A DNA stretch of 64,000 nucleotides from Halarcobacter bivalviorum (GTDB lineage: Bacteria > Campylobacterota > Campylobacteria > Campylobacterales > Arcobacteraceae). The stretch's first letter is position 1; the number at the start of each line of letters is the position of its first letter. The DNA is taken from assembly GCF_003346815.1 (NCBI RefSeq), contig NZ_CP031217.1, forward strand, positions 1-64,000, in the 5' to 3' direction. A program made the position numbers and the translations under genes. Under the pieces are notes generated by a model. It was given only the letters and a program-made list of their open reading frames with translations. It did no database searches and was not told the origin of the DNA. Below are positions 6,787 through 51,631 of this stretch, in pieces.

Positions 6787-7638
6787 TTAGTCTTTAAAAA
6801 GTTGTACTATAGAACAAAAATCCTCTTCACCTTTTCCATCTTTTTTCATCTTTCCAAATAGTTCTTTTGGAATAGCTGCTGTATATAAAGGCTGATTCAT
6901 ACTATAAGCTAAATCTTGTAAAGTATGTAAATCCTTATAAATAGCATTATTTGAAAAGTGAGGAGAGTAATCCTCTTCTAATAGTTTTTGTGTTTTTGCT
7001 TTAAGTACTAGTGATTGTCCCCCACCAACTCCTAATATTTCTAGAAGTGTACTTCTTGATATATCACAAGCATCACCTAAAGCACTACATTCTGCGATTG
7101 TAGCCATAAATGACCCTAGACATAGATTATTGATTAGTTTCATCTTAGAAGCTTTTCCTGGCTCTTTTAAATAGAATATCTCTTTACCAATTTTCTCTAA
7201 AACTACTTTACATGAATCAAAAGTCTCTTTTTTACCAGAGGTAACTATTGTTACTTGTCCTTGTAATGCAGGAGCTACACTACCAAAAATAGGTGATTCT
7301 AAATACTCACCACCTCTTTCATCAATTATATTATGGAAGTTTAGAACTTGCTTGAAATGATTAGTTGTTAAATCAATAATAGTTTTACCCTCTAAATCAG
7401 CTTCTAAAAGACCATTTTCCATATTGAAAATATTTTCTACAGCATCTGATTCAAAAAGGCATAAGATTACAATATCACACTTTTCAATTAACTCTTTTGG
7501 TGATTTTGCAATTTTATATCCTAAATCTTCTACTTTTTCTCTAGTTCTATTGTAAACAACTAGCTCTTCATTCATATCTGTTAATCTTTGAGCAACTGCA
7601 CGCCCTAGGTTCCCAAGTCCAATAAATCCTAATGCCAT
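6787..7638 (-). CDS. NAD(P)-dependent 3-hydroxyisobutyrate dehydrogenase-like oxidoreductase
   Basis: This 283-residue protein belongs to the beta-hydroxyacid dehydrogenase family (HIBADH / glyoxylate-succinic semialdehyde reductase group). The N-terminus MALGFIGLGNLGRAVAQRL is the Rossmann GxGxxG motif. Substrate-binding ESPIFGSVAPALQGQ and the lysine helix KASKMKLINNLCLGS, containing the catalytic Lys, follow in the usual order. The real substrate is unknown; small carbonyl detoxification is plausible. A TATAAT box on the minus strand at 7665-7670 lies 27 bases before the ATG, so it probably has its own promoter although lysE is just upstream. zupT follows within 2 bases. Confidence 0.85.
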   Translation of the reverse strand: MALGFIGLGNLGRAVAQRLTDMNEELVVYNRTREKVEDLGYKIAKSPKELIEKCDIVILCLFESDAVENIFNMENGLLEADLEGKTIIDLTTNHFKQVLNFHNIIDERGGEYLESPIFGSVAPALQGQVTIVTSGKKETFDSCKVVLEKIGKEIFYLKEPGKASKMKLINNLCLGSFMATIAECSALGDACDISRSTLLEILGVGGGQSLVLKAKTQKLLEEDYSPHFSNNAIYKDLHTLQDLAYSMNQPLYTAAIPKELFGKMKKDGKGEEDFCSIVQLFKD

Positions 7639-7680
7639 AGCTTTCCTTTCTTCTTTTTATATTGATTATAATAAAAAAAA

Positions 7681-8310
7681 TTAAAAACTATCTATAATTA
7701 TGAAGCTAGCTATAAATAAAAGAATTAAGCCACATATTTTTTCAATATAGTTTGAATATTTTTGAAAAATATATTTGCTTTTTTTATTTGTAATTAAATA
7801 GACTATAAATATATCCCAAAATAAAACAGCTAAAAACATCCAAAGAGCATAAAATGATTGTATAGATAATGGTGTTGTATTATTTATAGAAATAGAAAAC
7901 ATTGTAAAATAAAAAATTGAGTTTTTTGGATTTAAAATAGCAGATAAAAAACCCATTGAAAAATATTTTATAAGACTTTTTTTATTTTCACTTCTTAGCT
8001 TTTCTTTTGAAAAGAGGTCCCTTTTTTTTGTTTTTAAAAGCATAAATGCAATATAGATTAAATATAAAGAACCAAGTACTTTAATAAATAAAAATATATT
8101 TTGATTTTCTTTGACTAAAGTGATTCCTAAAAGAGCTAATAATATATAAACTAAGTTAGCAATAGCAATTCCAAAAGAAGTTATAATCCCAGATAGTTTT
8201 CCATATTTTGAGGAGTTTGAAAGAATGATAAAAAAATCAACCCCTGGACTTAGTAAAGCAATAAAATGTGCAAGAGCAAGGGTTATAAAAGCACTTAAAT
8301 AAGCTTCCAT
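7681..8310 (-). CDS. LysE/RhtB family amino acid exporter
   Basis: This is a 209-residue inner-membrane exporter of the LysE/RhtB superfamily, with about six hydrophobic segments. The N-terminal LSPGVDFFIILSNSSKYGKL contains the family's conserved Pro-Gly and Asp, and the middle FLSAILNPKNSIFYF carries the conserved NPK. Such proteins export lysine, homoserine, threonine, leucine or similar. The ATG follows AAGGAATTAA. An AraC-type regulator lies 61 bases upstream on the same strand; AraC-LysE pairs are common, so regulation of this exporter by that protein is likely. Confidence 0.87.
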   Translation of the reverse strand: MEAYLSAFITLALAHFIALLSPGVDFFIILSNSSKYGKLSGIITSFGIAIANLVYILLALLGITLVKENQNIFLFIKVLGSLYLIYIAFMLLKTKKRDLFSKEKLRSENKKSLIKYFSMGFLSAILNPKNSIFYFTMFSISINNTTPLSIQSFYALWMFLAVLFWDIFIVYLITNKKSKYIFQKYSNYIEKICGLILLFIASFIIIDSF

Positions 8311-8371: not shown

Positions 8372-9181
8372 TTAAATAAAATTTTTTCTATATTGGTTTG
8401 GAGTAGTAGCTACTATATTTAAAAAGTTTTTATGAAAATGGCTTTGGTCTACAAAACCACACTCTAATGCAGCATTAACAATAGTTTCTCCTTTTTTTAA
8501 AAGTTCTTTTGAGTAGTTAATTTTTATATTTAAAAGATATTTGTGAGGAGTCATATTCATATTTGCTTTGAAAAGTTTAATTATATAAAAGCTATTAAGA
8601 GAAAATTTTTTAGCTAACTCTTCTAAAGAGATATTTTCTTTAAAATTTTCTTTTAGATATTTGCATATTTTTTCAAAATTTTCATCTTCAATTTTTTCTT
8701 TTGAATTGGGAATATTTTTTTCAAAAAGTTTTGTAAAAAACTCAATTAGTTCATTCTCTTTTTCTTCTATAGAACTATTTGAAAAAAGTAATTTACAAAG
8801 ATTTAGGAAATCTTTATAATAATTTTGATCATCAATCAAAGCATTTGGATATTCTATAAAACTTGTAATATGATTTGAAATAGTTTTTTGTATTTCAAAA
8901 CACCATTTTTTGTCTAAGTAAAGCATATAATATTCATGATTTTCTCTTTTAAGGGCATTGCAAGAGTGTATTTCATTTGGGTTTACAACTGCAATAAGTC
9001 CTTTTTTAAAATCATATTTTTTTTGTTTATTTGAATATAGACTTTCACCTTTAAGGTTGATACCTATAGAAAAGCTTTCGTGGATATGTTCTTTATAGTG
9101 ATTTCCTGTATTTGAATGTCTTAGTTCTAAATAAGGAAGTGCTTTATGTATAAAAACTTTAGTAAATTTTCCTTCTTTAAT
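8372..9181 (-). CDS. AraC-family transcriptional regulator with apparent ATT start
   Basis: The C-terminal 100 residues are a clear AraC double helix-turn-helix (LEELAKKFSLNSFYIIKLFK and ALECGFVDQSHFHKNFLN). The first in-frame ATG is at 8926, but the frame stays open 85 codons further upstream and encodes a typical cupin-like sensing domain. It includes LPYLELRHS, a HYKEHIHESFSIGINLKGES-type metal/ligand stretch and VVNPNEIHSC. This gives 269 residues, the normal AraC length. A TAA at 9187-9185 closes the frame, with no ATG, GTG or TTG between. The best start is ATT at 9181-9179, 7 bases after AAAAGG. Otherwise the start codon has been lost and the gene is decaying. It probably controls the lysE gene downstream. 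Confidence 0.75.
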   Translation of the reverse strand: MKEGKFTKVFIHKALPYLELRHSNTGNHYKEHIHESFSIGINLKGESLYSNKQKKYDFKKGLIAVVNPNEIHSCNALKRENHEYYMLYLDKKWCFEIQKTISNHITSFIEYPNALIDDQNYYKDFLNLCKLLFSNSSIEEKENELIEFFTKLFEKNIPNSKEKIEDENFEKICKYLKENFKENISLEELAKKFSLNSFYIIKLFKANMNMTPHKYLLNIKINYSKELLKKGETIVNAALECGFVDQSHFHKNFLNIVATTPNQYRKNFI

Positions 9182-9239
9182 CTTTTAGCCTTTTTATTTA
9201 ATATAGATTTATATCAAAAAAGTATTTAGAGTTAAAATA

Positions 9240-45722: not shown

Positions 45723-45989
45723 CTAGAATTGTCTTCTTGGTCTCTCTTCTCTTGGTTTTGCTTCGTTAACTCTTAAAGTTCTACCTTCGCAATCGTTACC
45801 ATTTAATTTTTCAATAGCCTCTGCACCAGATGCAGCATCTGCCATTTCAACAAATCCGAAACCTTTAGATCTTCCAGTTTCTCTATCTACGATTACTTTT
45901 GCACTTTTAACTTCACCGAATTCAGCGAAAACCTTTTCTAATTCACTATCATTCATTCTATATGATAGATTTCCAACATAAATGTTCAT
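45723..45989 (-). CDS. RRM-domain RNA-binding protein
   Basis: This is an 88-residue single RNA-recognition-motif protein, with RNP2 IYVGNLSY at the N-terminus and RNP1 SKGFGFVEM in the middle, then a short basic, arginine-rich tail (EERPRRQF). Such small RRM proteins in Campylobacterota and cyanobacteria bind RNA and are often cold- or stress-related. AAAGGATTAAAAGTA gives the ribosome site. Its 3' flank contains the stem-loop cluster at 45517-45672. Confidence 0.95.
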   Translation of the reverse strand: MNIYVGNLSYRMNDSELEKVFAEFGEVKSAKVIVDRETGRSKGFGFVEMADAASGAEAIEKLNGNDCEGRTLRVNEAKPREERPRRQF

Positions 45990-47472: not shown

Positions 47473-47574
47473 TTATTCCTTATCTTTATTCTTATAACTT
47501 TTAAAAAAACCAATCGCAGAGAATATTGCAACTGCTGCAATAAATATTAGCATTGCTAAATCAAGAGCTTCCAT
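47473..47574 (-). CDS. Small single-span membrane protein (33 residues) between rlmN and gltX
   Basis: ATG at 47574-47572 opens 33 codons: a hydrophobic N-terminal span (MEALDLAMLIFIAAVAIFSA, then IGFF) followed by a charged tail (KSYKNKDKE). It overlaps the end of rlmN by 14 bases, has AAGGA at good spacing inside rlmN, and stops 4 bases before the gltX ATG. That spacing is typical of a translationally coupled gene, and the gltX ribosome site lies inside its last codons. I recognise no family. The orientation, ribosome site and one clear membrane segment make it more convincing than a chance frame. Confidence 0.6.
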   Translation of the reverse strand: MEALDLAMLIFIAAVAIFSAIGFFKSYKNKDKE

Positions 47575-48628
47575 TAGCTTCCTTTTCTTTTAATTGTCCA
47601 CATGCTGCAGAGATATCTAAGCCTTTTGATTCTCTAATAGTACATAGAAGACCTCTATTAGTTAAATATTCTTGGAATTTTATCATATCCTCCCTTTGTG
47701 GTCTTTGATATGTAGTTCCTGGATATGGATTAAAATAAATTAGATTTACTTTTGCTTTAATCCCATCTAAAAGTCTTAATAGTTCTTGTGCACTTTTAAT
47801 ATCATCATTTTTATCTTTTATAACAAGATATTCAAACATAACTTTTTTTCTTGCATCAACAGGGAATTTTCTAACAGCATCAATAATAGATTTAATATTA
47901 TACGCTTTATTCATTGGAATTAATTCACTTCTTAGTTGATCATCAACAGCATGTAAAGAGATAGCAAGTTGAATTCCTAAATCTTCATTTCCTAGTTTTT
48001 CAATTTTCGTTGAAATTCCAGATGTAGAAACAGTTTGTCTTCTTCTTGATATTGCTAATCCATCAAGTTCTGAAAATATCTTTACCGAATGAACAAAGTT
48101 CTTATAGTTATCAAGTGGTTCACCCATTCCCATAAAAACAATATTAAGTGCTTTATTCTCTGCAATATTGTTATCTCTTTTTATTTGAACAATTTGATTT
48201 ACAATTTCTCCAACTAAAAGATTTCTAACAAAACCACCTTTTGCTGTTAAACAAAAACTACATCCAACTTTACATCCAACTTGAGTAGAGATACAAACGG
48301 TATATTTTTCACCTTTTTCTATTGAACCATCATCATTAACTTTTTTCTCTTTCATTAATAATAATACAGATTCTACAGTGTGTCCATCGTGTAGTTGGAA
48401 AAGGTATTTGATGCTACCATCAATACTTTGCTCTTTTTTTACTATTTTTAAAATATCTATTGCATAGTTTTCTTTTAAATTATCTTTTAAGTCAGCTGGT
48501 ATATTTTTCATCTCATCATATGAAGTTACATATTTTTTATATAACCAGTTATAAACTTGTTTCGCTCTAAAGCTTGGTTTTAATTTTTCTTTTAATTCAT
48601 CTAATGTGTAATCATAGATTGTATTCAT
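47561..48628 (-). CDS. rlmN: 23S rRNA (adenine-2503-C2) methyltransferase RlmN
   Basis: This radical SAM enzyme methylates A2503 of 23S rRNA and A37 of some tRNAs. The 355 residues contain the 4Fe-4S motif GCKVGCSFCLTA (CxxxCxxC), VFMGMGEPLDNYKNF, and the C-terminal catalytic cysteine in ISAACGQLKEKEA. RBS GGAAAGCT lies before the ATG. The downstream order is a 33-residue membrane gene then gltX, all on the minus strand and closely spaced. A parS site lies 80 bases upstream at 48709. Confidence 0.95.
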   Translation of the reverse strand: MNTIYDYTLDELKEKLKPSFRAKQVYNWLYKKYVTSYDEMKNIPADLKDNLKENYAIDILKIVKKEQSIDGSIKYLFQLHDGHTVESVLLLMKEKKVNDDGSIEKGEKYTVCISTQVGCKVGCSFCLTAKGGFVRNLLVGEIVNQIVQIKRDNNIAENKALNIVFMGMGEPLDNYKNFVHSVKIFSELDGLAISRRRQTVSTSGISTKIEKLGNEDLGIQLAISLHAVDDQLRSELIPMNKAYNIKSIIDAVRKFPVDARKKVMFEYLVIKDKNDDIKSAQELLRLLDGIKAKVNLIYFNPYPGTTYQRPQREDMIKFQEYLTNRGLLCTIRESKGLDISAACGQLKEKEANGSS

Positions 48629-49985: not shown

Positions 49986-50747
49986 TTAAATCCTTACGGG
50001 TATATTATTTTCTCTTAAATAGTGTTTTAATTCCATAATATCAATTTCTTTAAAGTGAAAAATTGATGCTGCTAATGCGGCACTAGCTCCACAATCAAAA
50101 GCTTCTTTAATATGCTCCATTGTTCCAGCTCCACCACTTGCAATAACAGGGATATCAACTATTGAAGAGATTTTTGATGTAATTTCAAGCTCAAATCCTG
50201 TCTTAGCTCCATCAGTGTCCATTGATGTAAGTAGGATTTCACCTGCACCTCTATTGTAAACTTCTTTTGCCCAAGCAATTGCGTCAATTCCAGTATCTTC
50301 TCTTCCACCTTTTACAAAAACATGATAAGAACCATCAGCAACTTTTTTTACATCAATAGCAACAACTATGCATTGACTACCAAATCTTTTTGCCCCTTCA
50401 TCAATAAAATCTGGATTAACAACAGCTGAAGAGTTTACAGAAACCTTATCACAACCTACATTTAGTAATTTATAAATATCATCAAGCTTTCTAATTCCTC
50501 CACCAACAGTTAGTGGAATAAATACCTCTTTTGCAACATCTTTTACAATGTCAACAATAGTATCTCTATTTTCGTGGCTTGCAGTAATATCTAAAAATGT
50601 GATTTCATCTGCACCTTCATTATTGTATCTTTTAGCAACTTCTACGGGGTCTCCAGCATCTCTAAGACCAACGAAGTTTACTCCTTTTACTACTCTTCCA
50701 TCTTTTACATCTAAGCAAGGTATGATTCTTTTTGCAAAATAACTCAA
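49986..50747 (-). CDS. hisF: Imidazole glycerol phosphate synthase subunit HisF
   Basis: HisF is the cyclase half of the HisFH complex, which uses ammonia from HisH to convert PRFAR to IGP and AICAR in histidine synthesis. The 253 residues form a TIM barrel with catalytic Asp in [17 protein letters not shown], the second Asp in VVAIDVKK, and the phosphate sites [11 protein letters not shown] and [12 protein letters not shown]. The start is TTG at 50747, after AAGGATTAAGTT. HisH is not in the window. SIMPL follows one base after. Confidence 0.96.
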
Positions 50748-50836
50748 AACTTAATCCTTATTAAATTTAAGAAAAAATCTTATCTAATTGTAAGTTAAAA
50801 GCAGATATACTCTTTGATTCTTAGTAGGAGTAGGTT

Positions 50837-51631
50837 ATAGTTAAAGCAAAGAAAAAATTTGGACAAAACTTTTTAAAAGATAGTTCAGTATTAAATAAGA
50901 TCATCCAATCGATGCCCATAAATAGTAATCATATAGTTGAAATTGGGCCTGGCTTAGGTGATTTGACAGAAAAATTAGTCAAGTACAAAGATACGCGAGC
51001 GTATGAAGTAGATACTGATTTAATCGGTATTTTAAAGACAAAATTTGCAATAGATATCCATGAAAAGCGTTTTGAACTGATCCACACTGACGTTTTAAGA
51101 GCTTGGGATGAAAAAGGTACTCTGTATGATGGAAGCTATGATTTAATAGCTAATTTACCTTACTATATTGCAACAAATATTATTTTAAGGGCCCTTGAAG
51201 ACGATAATTGTGAGAATATTATTGTAATGATTCAGAAAGAAGTTGCATTAAAATTCTCCGCATCAGAAGGTGAAAAAGAGTTTTCAGGTTTAGGAGTTAT
51301 TACAAAACTATCTTCAAAGGAAGCTAGAATTTTGTTTGATGTACCTCCAGAATCTTTTGACCCAGCACCAAAGGTTATGTCTTCAATTCTTTATATCAAA
51401 AAAGATTTAGATGTAAAGCTAGATAAAAGTTTTTTAAAGTTTTTGAAGGTTTGTTTTTCACAGCCTAGAAAAAAACTTTCTAAAAATCTTTCTACGGTTT
51501 ACGATAAAGAACTTTTATCTGATGTTTACAAGGACCTTGATTTAATAGAAACTTTAAGACCTCATGAGCTTAGCGCATCTTTGTATAGCCAAATGTATAC
51601 AAAGGTGAAGAATGGAAAAGAACGAAGTTAA
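50837..51631 (+). CDS. rsmA: 16S rRNA dimethyladenosine transferase RsmA (KsgA), apparent ATA start
   Basis: RsmA dimethylates two adenines near the 3' end of 16S rRNA, a late 30S assembly step. The conserved N-terminus VKAKKKFGQNFLKDSSVL lies upstream of the first ATG (50912) and is essential for SAM binding, so the gene must begin earlier. The frame is closed by TAG at 50831. AGGAG ends six bases before ATA at 50837, and no ATG, GTG or TTG lies in between. This gives 264 residues, close to the family length. IVEIGPGLGDLTEKLV and NLPYYIATNIILR (motif IV) follow. The stop overlaps the RNase J start by 20 bases. Confidence 0.9.
   Translation: MVKAKKKFGQNFLKDSSVLNKIIQSMPINSNHIVEIGPGLGDLTEKLVKYKDTRAYEVDTDLIGILKTKFAIDIHEKRFELIHTDVLRAWDEKGTLYDGSYDLIANLPYYIATNIILRALEDDNCENIIVMIQKEVALKFSASEGEKEFSGLGVITKLSSKEARILFDVPPESFDPAPKVMSSILYIKKDLDVKLDKSFLKFLKVCFSQPRKKLSKNLSTVYDKELLSDVYKDLDLIETLRPHELSASLYSQMYTKVKNGKERS

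Follow-up and report, generated by a model that had tools for sequence, protein, structure and literature searches.

The rsmA (ksgA) gene of Halarcobacter bivalviorum seems to begin at AUA, a rare and weak start codon. The joint explanation that we consider rather likely is that RsmA is translated from the AUA at 50837 by an SD-driven, inefficient and IF3-gated initiation, that this start had one origin in a subclade, and that it belongs to a class of AUA, AUC and AUU (AUH) starts; the low efficiency, the IF3 gating and the purpose of the AUA are the parts that we infer. The window analysed was the first 64,000 bases of the single-contig genome (2,684,688 bases), and the features of the rsmA locus in it are as follows.

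50806-50811, plus strand: likely -10 box TATACT, from leader comparison; the block is alike in most of the family
50826-50830, plus strand: putative ribosome-binding site AGGAG, from the sequence; found in all four ATA species
50831-50833, plus strand: upstream in-frame stop TAG, at which the frame is closed
50837-50839, plus strand: proposed rsmA start codon ATA, from the sequence; common to four species
50837-51631, plus strand: rsmA (ksgA) coding sequence including the stop, by TIGR00755, PF00398 and PDB RsmA chains
50912-50914, plus strand: first in-frame canonical codon, ATG, not taken as the rsmA start

The 16S rRNA 3' end contains GATCACCTCCTTT, in support of AGGAG as ribosome-binding site. 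The original prediction had placed AGGAG six bases before ATA 50837, the frame being closed by TAG 50831, with the conserved RsmA N-terminus directly behind the ATA. All of this was recovered: the spacer is the six bases TAGGTT, VKAKKKFGQNFL directly follows the ATA, and the TIGR00755 profile is matched from its position 1. It had also claimed that a canonical start is absent before a truncated ATG at 50912; no in-frame ATG, GTG or TTG was found between TAG 50831 and this ATG, and the ATG is the first downstream one, with 24 codons between it and the ATA. It was ruled out as the rsmA start, having no SD and costing the conserved KFGQNFL stretch, and the TIGR00755 and PDB RsmA matches begin upstream of it. 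The TATACT box lies 25 bases from the start, and the neighbours of rsmA are a divergent hisF on one side and a ribonuclease J gene overlapping the rsmA end. No report of an AUA start of rsmA was found in the open-licence literature, mostly titles and abstract openings.

The protein read from 50840 matched the NCBIfam ksgA profile TIGR00755 with 208.5 bits (cut-off 171) over its full length, profile positions 1-254 (of 256) being aligned with RsmA residues 1-254. Since the match starts at profile position 1, the 24 codons between the ATA and ATG 50912 belong to the RsmA family. Moreover, PF00398 was also matched, and the alignments of the ten matched solved RsmA-type sequences (PDB) begin at query residues 1 to 6. 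By family profile, the gene product is the RsmA/KsgA dimethyltransferase. The helix 45 target adenosines are present in the 16S 3' end (GTAGGTGAACCTGC...GATCACCTCC; three of four copies read).

As the original prediction had proposed, rsmA 5' ends were aligned in relatives. An SD followed by ATA, with no ATG, GTG or TTG back to the preceding stop, was found in 4 of 16 genus genomes (G000, G008, G009 and G010), the same ATA and AGGAG thus recurring in three further species of the genus; in the remaining 12 genomes, an rsmA ATG lies slightly further upstream. AGGAG with a six-base spacer precedes the ATA in 4/4 ATA species, and in the three sisters the ATA comes after TAGGAG. These four species form one side of a branch in the tree (support 96/95), and the ATA start probably arose once, in this subclade. 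The rsmA leader pattern, when searched in 199 genomes of the order, matched the window genome only; the three sisters were outside that sample. Compared with each sister, the third base is changed in 22-24% of the window rsmA codons. Synonymous codon differences number 52-55 and non-synonymous ones 23-24; the changes are thus mainly synonymous, as expected of a working gene. A sequencing error at 50839, which had been named as a finding that would overturn the AUA start, was not borne out: ATA stands in four assemblies, and its occurrence with AGGAG in three other species makes such an error very unlikely. A pseudogene or decayed rsmA was ruled out by the conserved full-length protein and the mostly synonymous change. 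No supporting point was found for either error or decay, and we give them practically no weight.

To place this start in the family, the rsmA 5' ends were read in 170 loci, namely 16 of the genus, 74 more of the family and 80 named loci chosen by similarity, with some genomes read twice; in the family sample, 13 of the 103 genomes with an rsmA match were left out of the 90 loci read. A canonical start was absent in only 4 of the 170 loci, those of the four ATA species. The nearest start was ATG in 86 of the 90 family loci, and in 78 of them (78/86 ATG loci) this ATG lies 0-12 bases past a -10-like hexamer and has no SD, the gap being 7-12 bases in 77 and 0 in one. The ATG-start relatives therefore appear to carry a leaderless or nearly leaderless mRNA layout. 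Where rsmA starts with ATA (four species), 25-26 bases separate this codon from the -10 box, and the SD lies roughly at the former ATG place. A short leader with an SD and an AUA has apparently taken the place of the near-leaderless AUG. The 80 named loci had 64 ATG, 11 TTG, 5 GTG and no AUH starts. In the main text of a C. jejuni Ribo-seq paper, no mention of ksgA or rsmA was found.

In the explanation that we favour, the 30S subunit would be recruited by the AGGAG site, and fMet-tRNA would pair with AUA at two positions, the third being a C.A mismatch. Initiation at the AUA would have a low efficiency, probably with IF3 acting against it, and RsmA would thereby be set low. In the subclade, the near-leaderless AUG would have been lost, with an SD site and a downstream Ile-type codon in its stead. 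As a hypothesis, IF3 may disfavour both kinds of start, the near-leaderless AUG as well as the SD-AUA, which could explain why one replaced the other. Raised IF3 is reported to inhibit model leaderless mRNAs, which at low levels of the factor may be helped by it or require it (PMC9031893; the PMC sources here and below are excerpts). In S. aureus, AUA and AUU starts with an extended SD gave about 10-30% of the AUG output in reporters (cvfC1, ccpN and citZ; PMC13009471), and the GTC start of Streptomyces sigR is repressed by IF3 (PMC5472188). Furthermore, rising IF3 lowers the output of a weak third-base pair, e.g. AUU with anticodon CAU; AUA with the initiator anticodon is not among the pairings in the excerpt (PMC10158994).

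The reading was then widened to the order. Of 199 genomes searched, 191 had an rsmA match, and the 5' end was read in 40 outside the family; families f8 and f14 were left out, and 7 of the 40 loci were picked since their families had shown ATA among the first 20. The 40 starts were 13 AUH, 13 TTG, 3 GTG, 9 ATG and 2 ATG with another canonical codon nearby. AUH starts of rsmA occurred in four other families: ATA in f12 (2/2 genomes read) and f15 (9/9), ATT in f21 (1/1) and ATC in f18 (1/2). In one f15 locus, TTG codons precede the SD. Between f12 and f15, the leader is nearly identical and may have one origin; it holds, in 11/11 genomes read, an out-of-frame ATG-NTA-TAA mini-frame whose stop overlaps the ATA (AAAGGATATGNTATAAT).

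With one genome taken per family (20 families), rsmA started with ATG in 7, the ambiguous f7 being counted as ATG, and with another codon in 13. The background was the SD-chosen starts in 20 stretches of 10-20 kb round rsmA from 18 of those families, rsmA included, which gave 191 ATG and 45 other starts. The 13/20 families thus exceed the background of 45/236 (Fisher p=2.7e-5, with families that are not independent and two counts that called starts differently). AUH flags were raised in 6 of 366 genes in these order stretches, and 4 of the 6 were rsmA; given an AUH detection of about 50%, the AUH background is near 1.2%, against which AUH at rsmA in 3/20 families has a p of about 0.002, a generous value if f12 and f15 are of one origin. 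Two further ATT-start candidates were seen in the order genomes, L324 minus 7057-8004, RlmN-like by likeness to the window ORF 47561-48628, and L342 minus 7151-7648. The recurrence of non-AUG rsmA starts across the order fits selection for weak initiation.

These data also bear on a replacement without selection, in which a mutation removed the ATG and a chance SD and AUA rescued rsmA. A single origin in the genus would suffice for this, and 16 of the 21 Ile codons shared between the window rsmA and each sister are likewise unchanged, so the retention of ATA alone says little. However, ATG is only one A-to-G change away and the ATA has been kept in four species, and AUH starts stand at rsmA in four other families. 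We regard the neutral account as doubtful. Because some relatives have similar weak starts, it may well be that the AUA serves to restrain rsmA expression and is no accident.

To see how common such starts are in the window genome, a census was made over 864 kb (the window and 40 stretches; 804 genes kept, detection about 50%), in which a gene was flagged when coding begins at an SD-supported AUA, AUU or AUC before any ATG, GTG or TTG. Nine genes were flagged, of which seven were plausible, and four besides rsmA were traced in relatives.

L199:3029-3814 (G000:C1:1533029-1533814), minus strand: tatD, putative ATA start after AAGG
L273:16064-17341 (G000:C1:1221064-1222341), plus strand: RhlE-like helicase, putative ATC start
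L264:1692-2603 (G000:C1:65692-66603), minus strand: AEC transporter, putative ATA start
8372-9181 of the window, minus strand: AraC-family regulator, putative ATT start at 9179-9181, with AAGG at 9189-9192, seven bases before

Two flags were judged spurious, L191 minus 648-938, which looks antisense, and window 45726-45989, whose first ATG has an SD. Possible ATC starts were also noted in a Nudix-type gene (L266:4947-5714, plus) and an EamA-type gene (L206:17591-18478, minus).

For tatD, the 16 genus loci were read together with 20 from the 84 remaining family genomes that had a match (100 matched in all), and the start was AUH in 36/36 (33 ATA, 2 ATT and 1 ATC), one locus having a TTG two codons upstream. 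The RhlE-like helicase had an AUH start in 15/15 genus loci (8 ATA, 5 ATC and 2 ATT; AAGGA at 5-6 bases), and the AEC transporter in 16/16 (9 ATA and 7 ATC), with a TTG located eleven codons before the start in three loci of the latter. In G006 (L370), the matched AEC sequence contains a TGA internally. In all the loci read for these three genes an SD was found at 5-8 bases, and no ATG start was seen. In the AraC regulator, the three sisters have ATA where the window genome has ATT, and AUH was seen in the subclade only; ATG stands in ten of 11 further genus loci, those read in register. In those ten, the ATG is often near a TATAAT-like box. In total, AUH without ATG was found in 75/75 loci (tatD 36, RhlE-like 15, AEC 16, AraC 4 and rsmA 4). 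Profile matches begin at the AUH starts, TIGR00010 position 1 falling on tatD residue 2 and PRK11192 position 3 on helicase residue 2. The minimum number of third-base changes at the AUH starts in the genus is 4 for the helicase, 2 for AEC and 1 for tatD; since the loci are related and these changes few, an avoidance of G at AUH starts is suggestive but weak by itself. Taken together, the start-site comparisons suggest that the rsmA AUA is one member of a wider AUH-start class in the Arcobacteraceae, with rsmA as a recurrent case, and the class probably consists of weak starts gated by IF3.

Could the AUA instead be reached by reinitiation, with a ribosome that terminates in an overlapping frame, at a stop over the ATA, and restarts there? 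The tatD ATA of the window genome overlaps the TAA of the preceding frame, the f12 and f15 mini-frames end over the rsmA ATA, and an ATAG overlap is present at the window rsmA. However, ATG is absent from the window rsmA leader, and the sisters lack the TTG that this frame contains; in f12 and f15, the SD is one base from the mini-frame ATG and six from the ATA. Reinitiation is quite improbable. For the window species, an upstream start combined with frameshift or reinitiation was rejected, the sole upstream TTG not being kept in the sisters.

A weak start is the simplest way of keeping any protein scarce. RsmA may be needed in small amounts only, and the AUA may hold it at a static low set-point with no sensing, a reading to which we give close to an even chance. 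Weak starts in several unrelated genes agree with it, and an excess of inactive KsgA, when overproduced, harms E. coli cells that lack ksgA (PMC9032327). Against it, the rsmA share of the AUH flags in the order (4/6) is left unexplained by a set-point alone.

The original prediction had gone further and proposed a feedback, in which under-methylated 30S subunits accept AUA better, so that RsmA rises when it is short and falls when the subunits are methylated. Autogenous translational control of E. coli ksgA was reportedly described by van Gemen in 1989. The premise that lost 16S methylation loosens start selection agrees with ksgA deletions, since non-AUG starts are over-represented among the proteins whose level goes up in E. 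coli and H. volcanii when ksgA is deleted (PMC7897474, citing O'Connor 1997). RsmA loss also relaxes initiator-tRNA selection (PMC7949028), and KsgA and IF3 have overlapping sites on the 30S subunit (PMC9032327). As unmethylated 30S reportedly initiates more at non-AUG codons, RsmA may plausibly be under a mild negative feedback, and the excess of non-ATG rsmA starts over the background points the same way. The ATA start and the recurrent non-AUG starts of rsmA thus stood, but the specificity for RsmA did not: the same start type occurs in tatD, AEC and AraC, a nuclease, a transporter and a regulator gene without obvious link to 16S maturation, and in the RhlE-like helicase, which possibly has one; this leaves an RsmA-specific reading unsupported. 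Moreover, hisF, which is divergent from rsmA on the minus strand (49986-50747, TTG start at 50745-50747) and has no such role, has TTG in 54/63 family loci (ATG in 34/44 named and 9/14 order loci); this long-kept TTG indicates that gene-specific weak starts need no feedback. The rsmA start is also ATG in most family (86/90) and named (64/80) loci. The methylation feedback is a reading that we consider less likely than not. A broader form, which we hold to be unlikely, is that the Campylobacterales AUH set including rsmA reads out 30S quality, its output rising with incomplete A1518/A1519 methylation or IF3 checking; if true, rsmA would close a homeostatic loop, and the other AUH genes would be a start-fidelity regulon. 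In this form, the swap from the near-leaderless AUG to SD and AUA would keep IF3 sensitivity, given the reported inhibition of leaderless mRNAs by raised IF3.

AUH starts are commonly treated as a few curiosities (infC, pcnB and ccpN), and they are invisible to gene finders that allow only ATG, GTG and TTG. One genus here shows several AUH genes, three of them kept in every genus locus read. The rsmA start has the marks of an AUH weak start: it matches AUG at positions 1-2 only, it has no canonical alternative, and its SD is well placed. In E. coli, infC starts with AUU, through which IF3 regulates its own synthesis. The S. aureus infC starts with AUA (PMC13009471). Like these, rsmA combines a third-base-mismatch start with an SD, and its product acts on the 30S subunit and bears on start selection; unlike them, it encodes a methyltransferase with a role in assembly. 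The infC start here is TTG in 16/16 genus genomes, so this genus does not show the classic AUU/IF3 autoregulation. The AUA of S. aureus ccpN and the AUU of cvfC1 are likewise conserved AUH starts with a strong SD, which limit output there, but those are other genes, with an extended SD and reporter tests, whereas the SD here has 4-5 bases (PMC13009471). The Streptomyces sigR GTC is similar in being a conserved non-canonical start with a strong SD that is hidden from gene finders, although sigR encodes a stress sigma factor and IF3 mutants were used there (PMC5472188). The sgm and kgmB products, like RsmA, are 16S rRNA methylases, and they control their own translation; they differ in being antibiotic-resistance methylases, and a start-codon mechanism is not named in the excerpt (PMC2791848). 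The non-canonical rsmA codon is conserved within the subclade only (4/4) and is seen again in f12, f15, f18 and f21. With a 16S methylase that has repeated AUH starts, a feedback of 30S maturation through start-codon stringency becomes testable.
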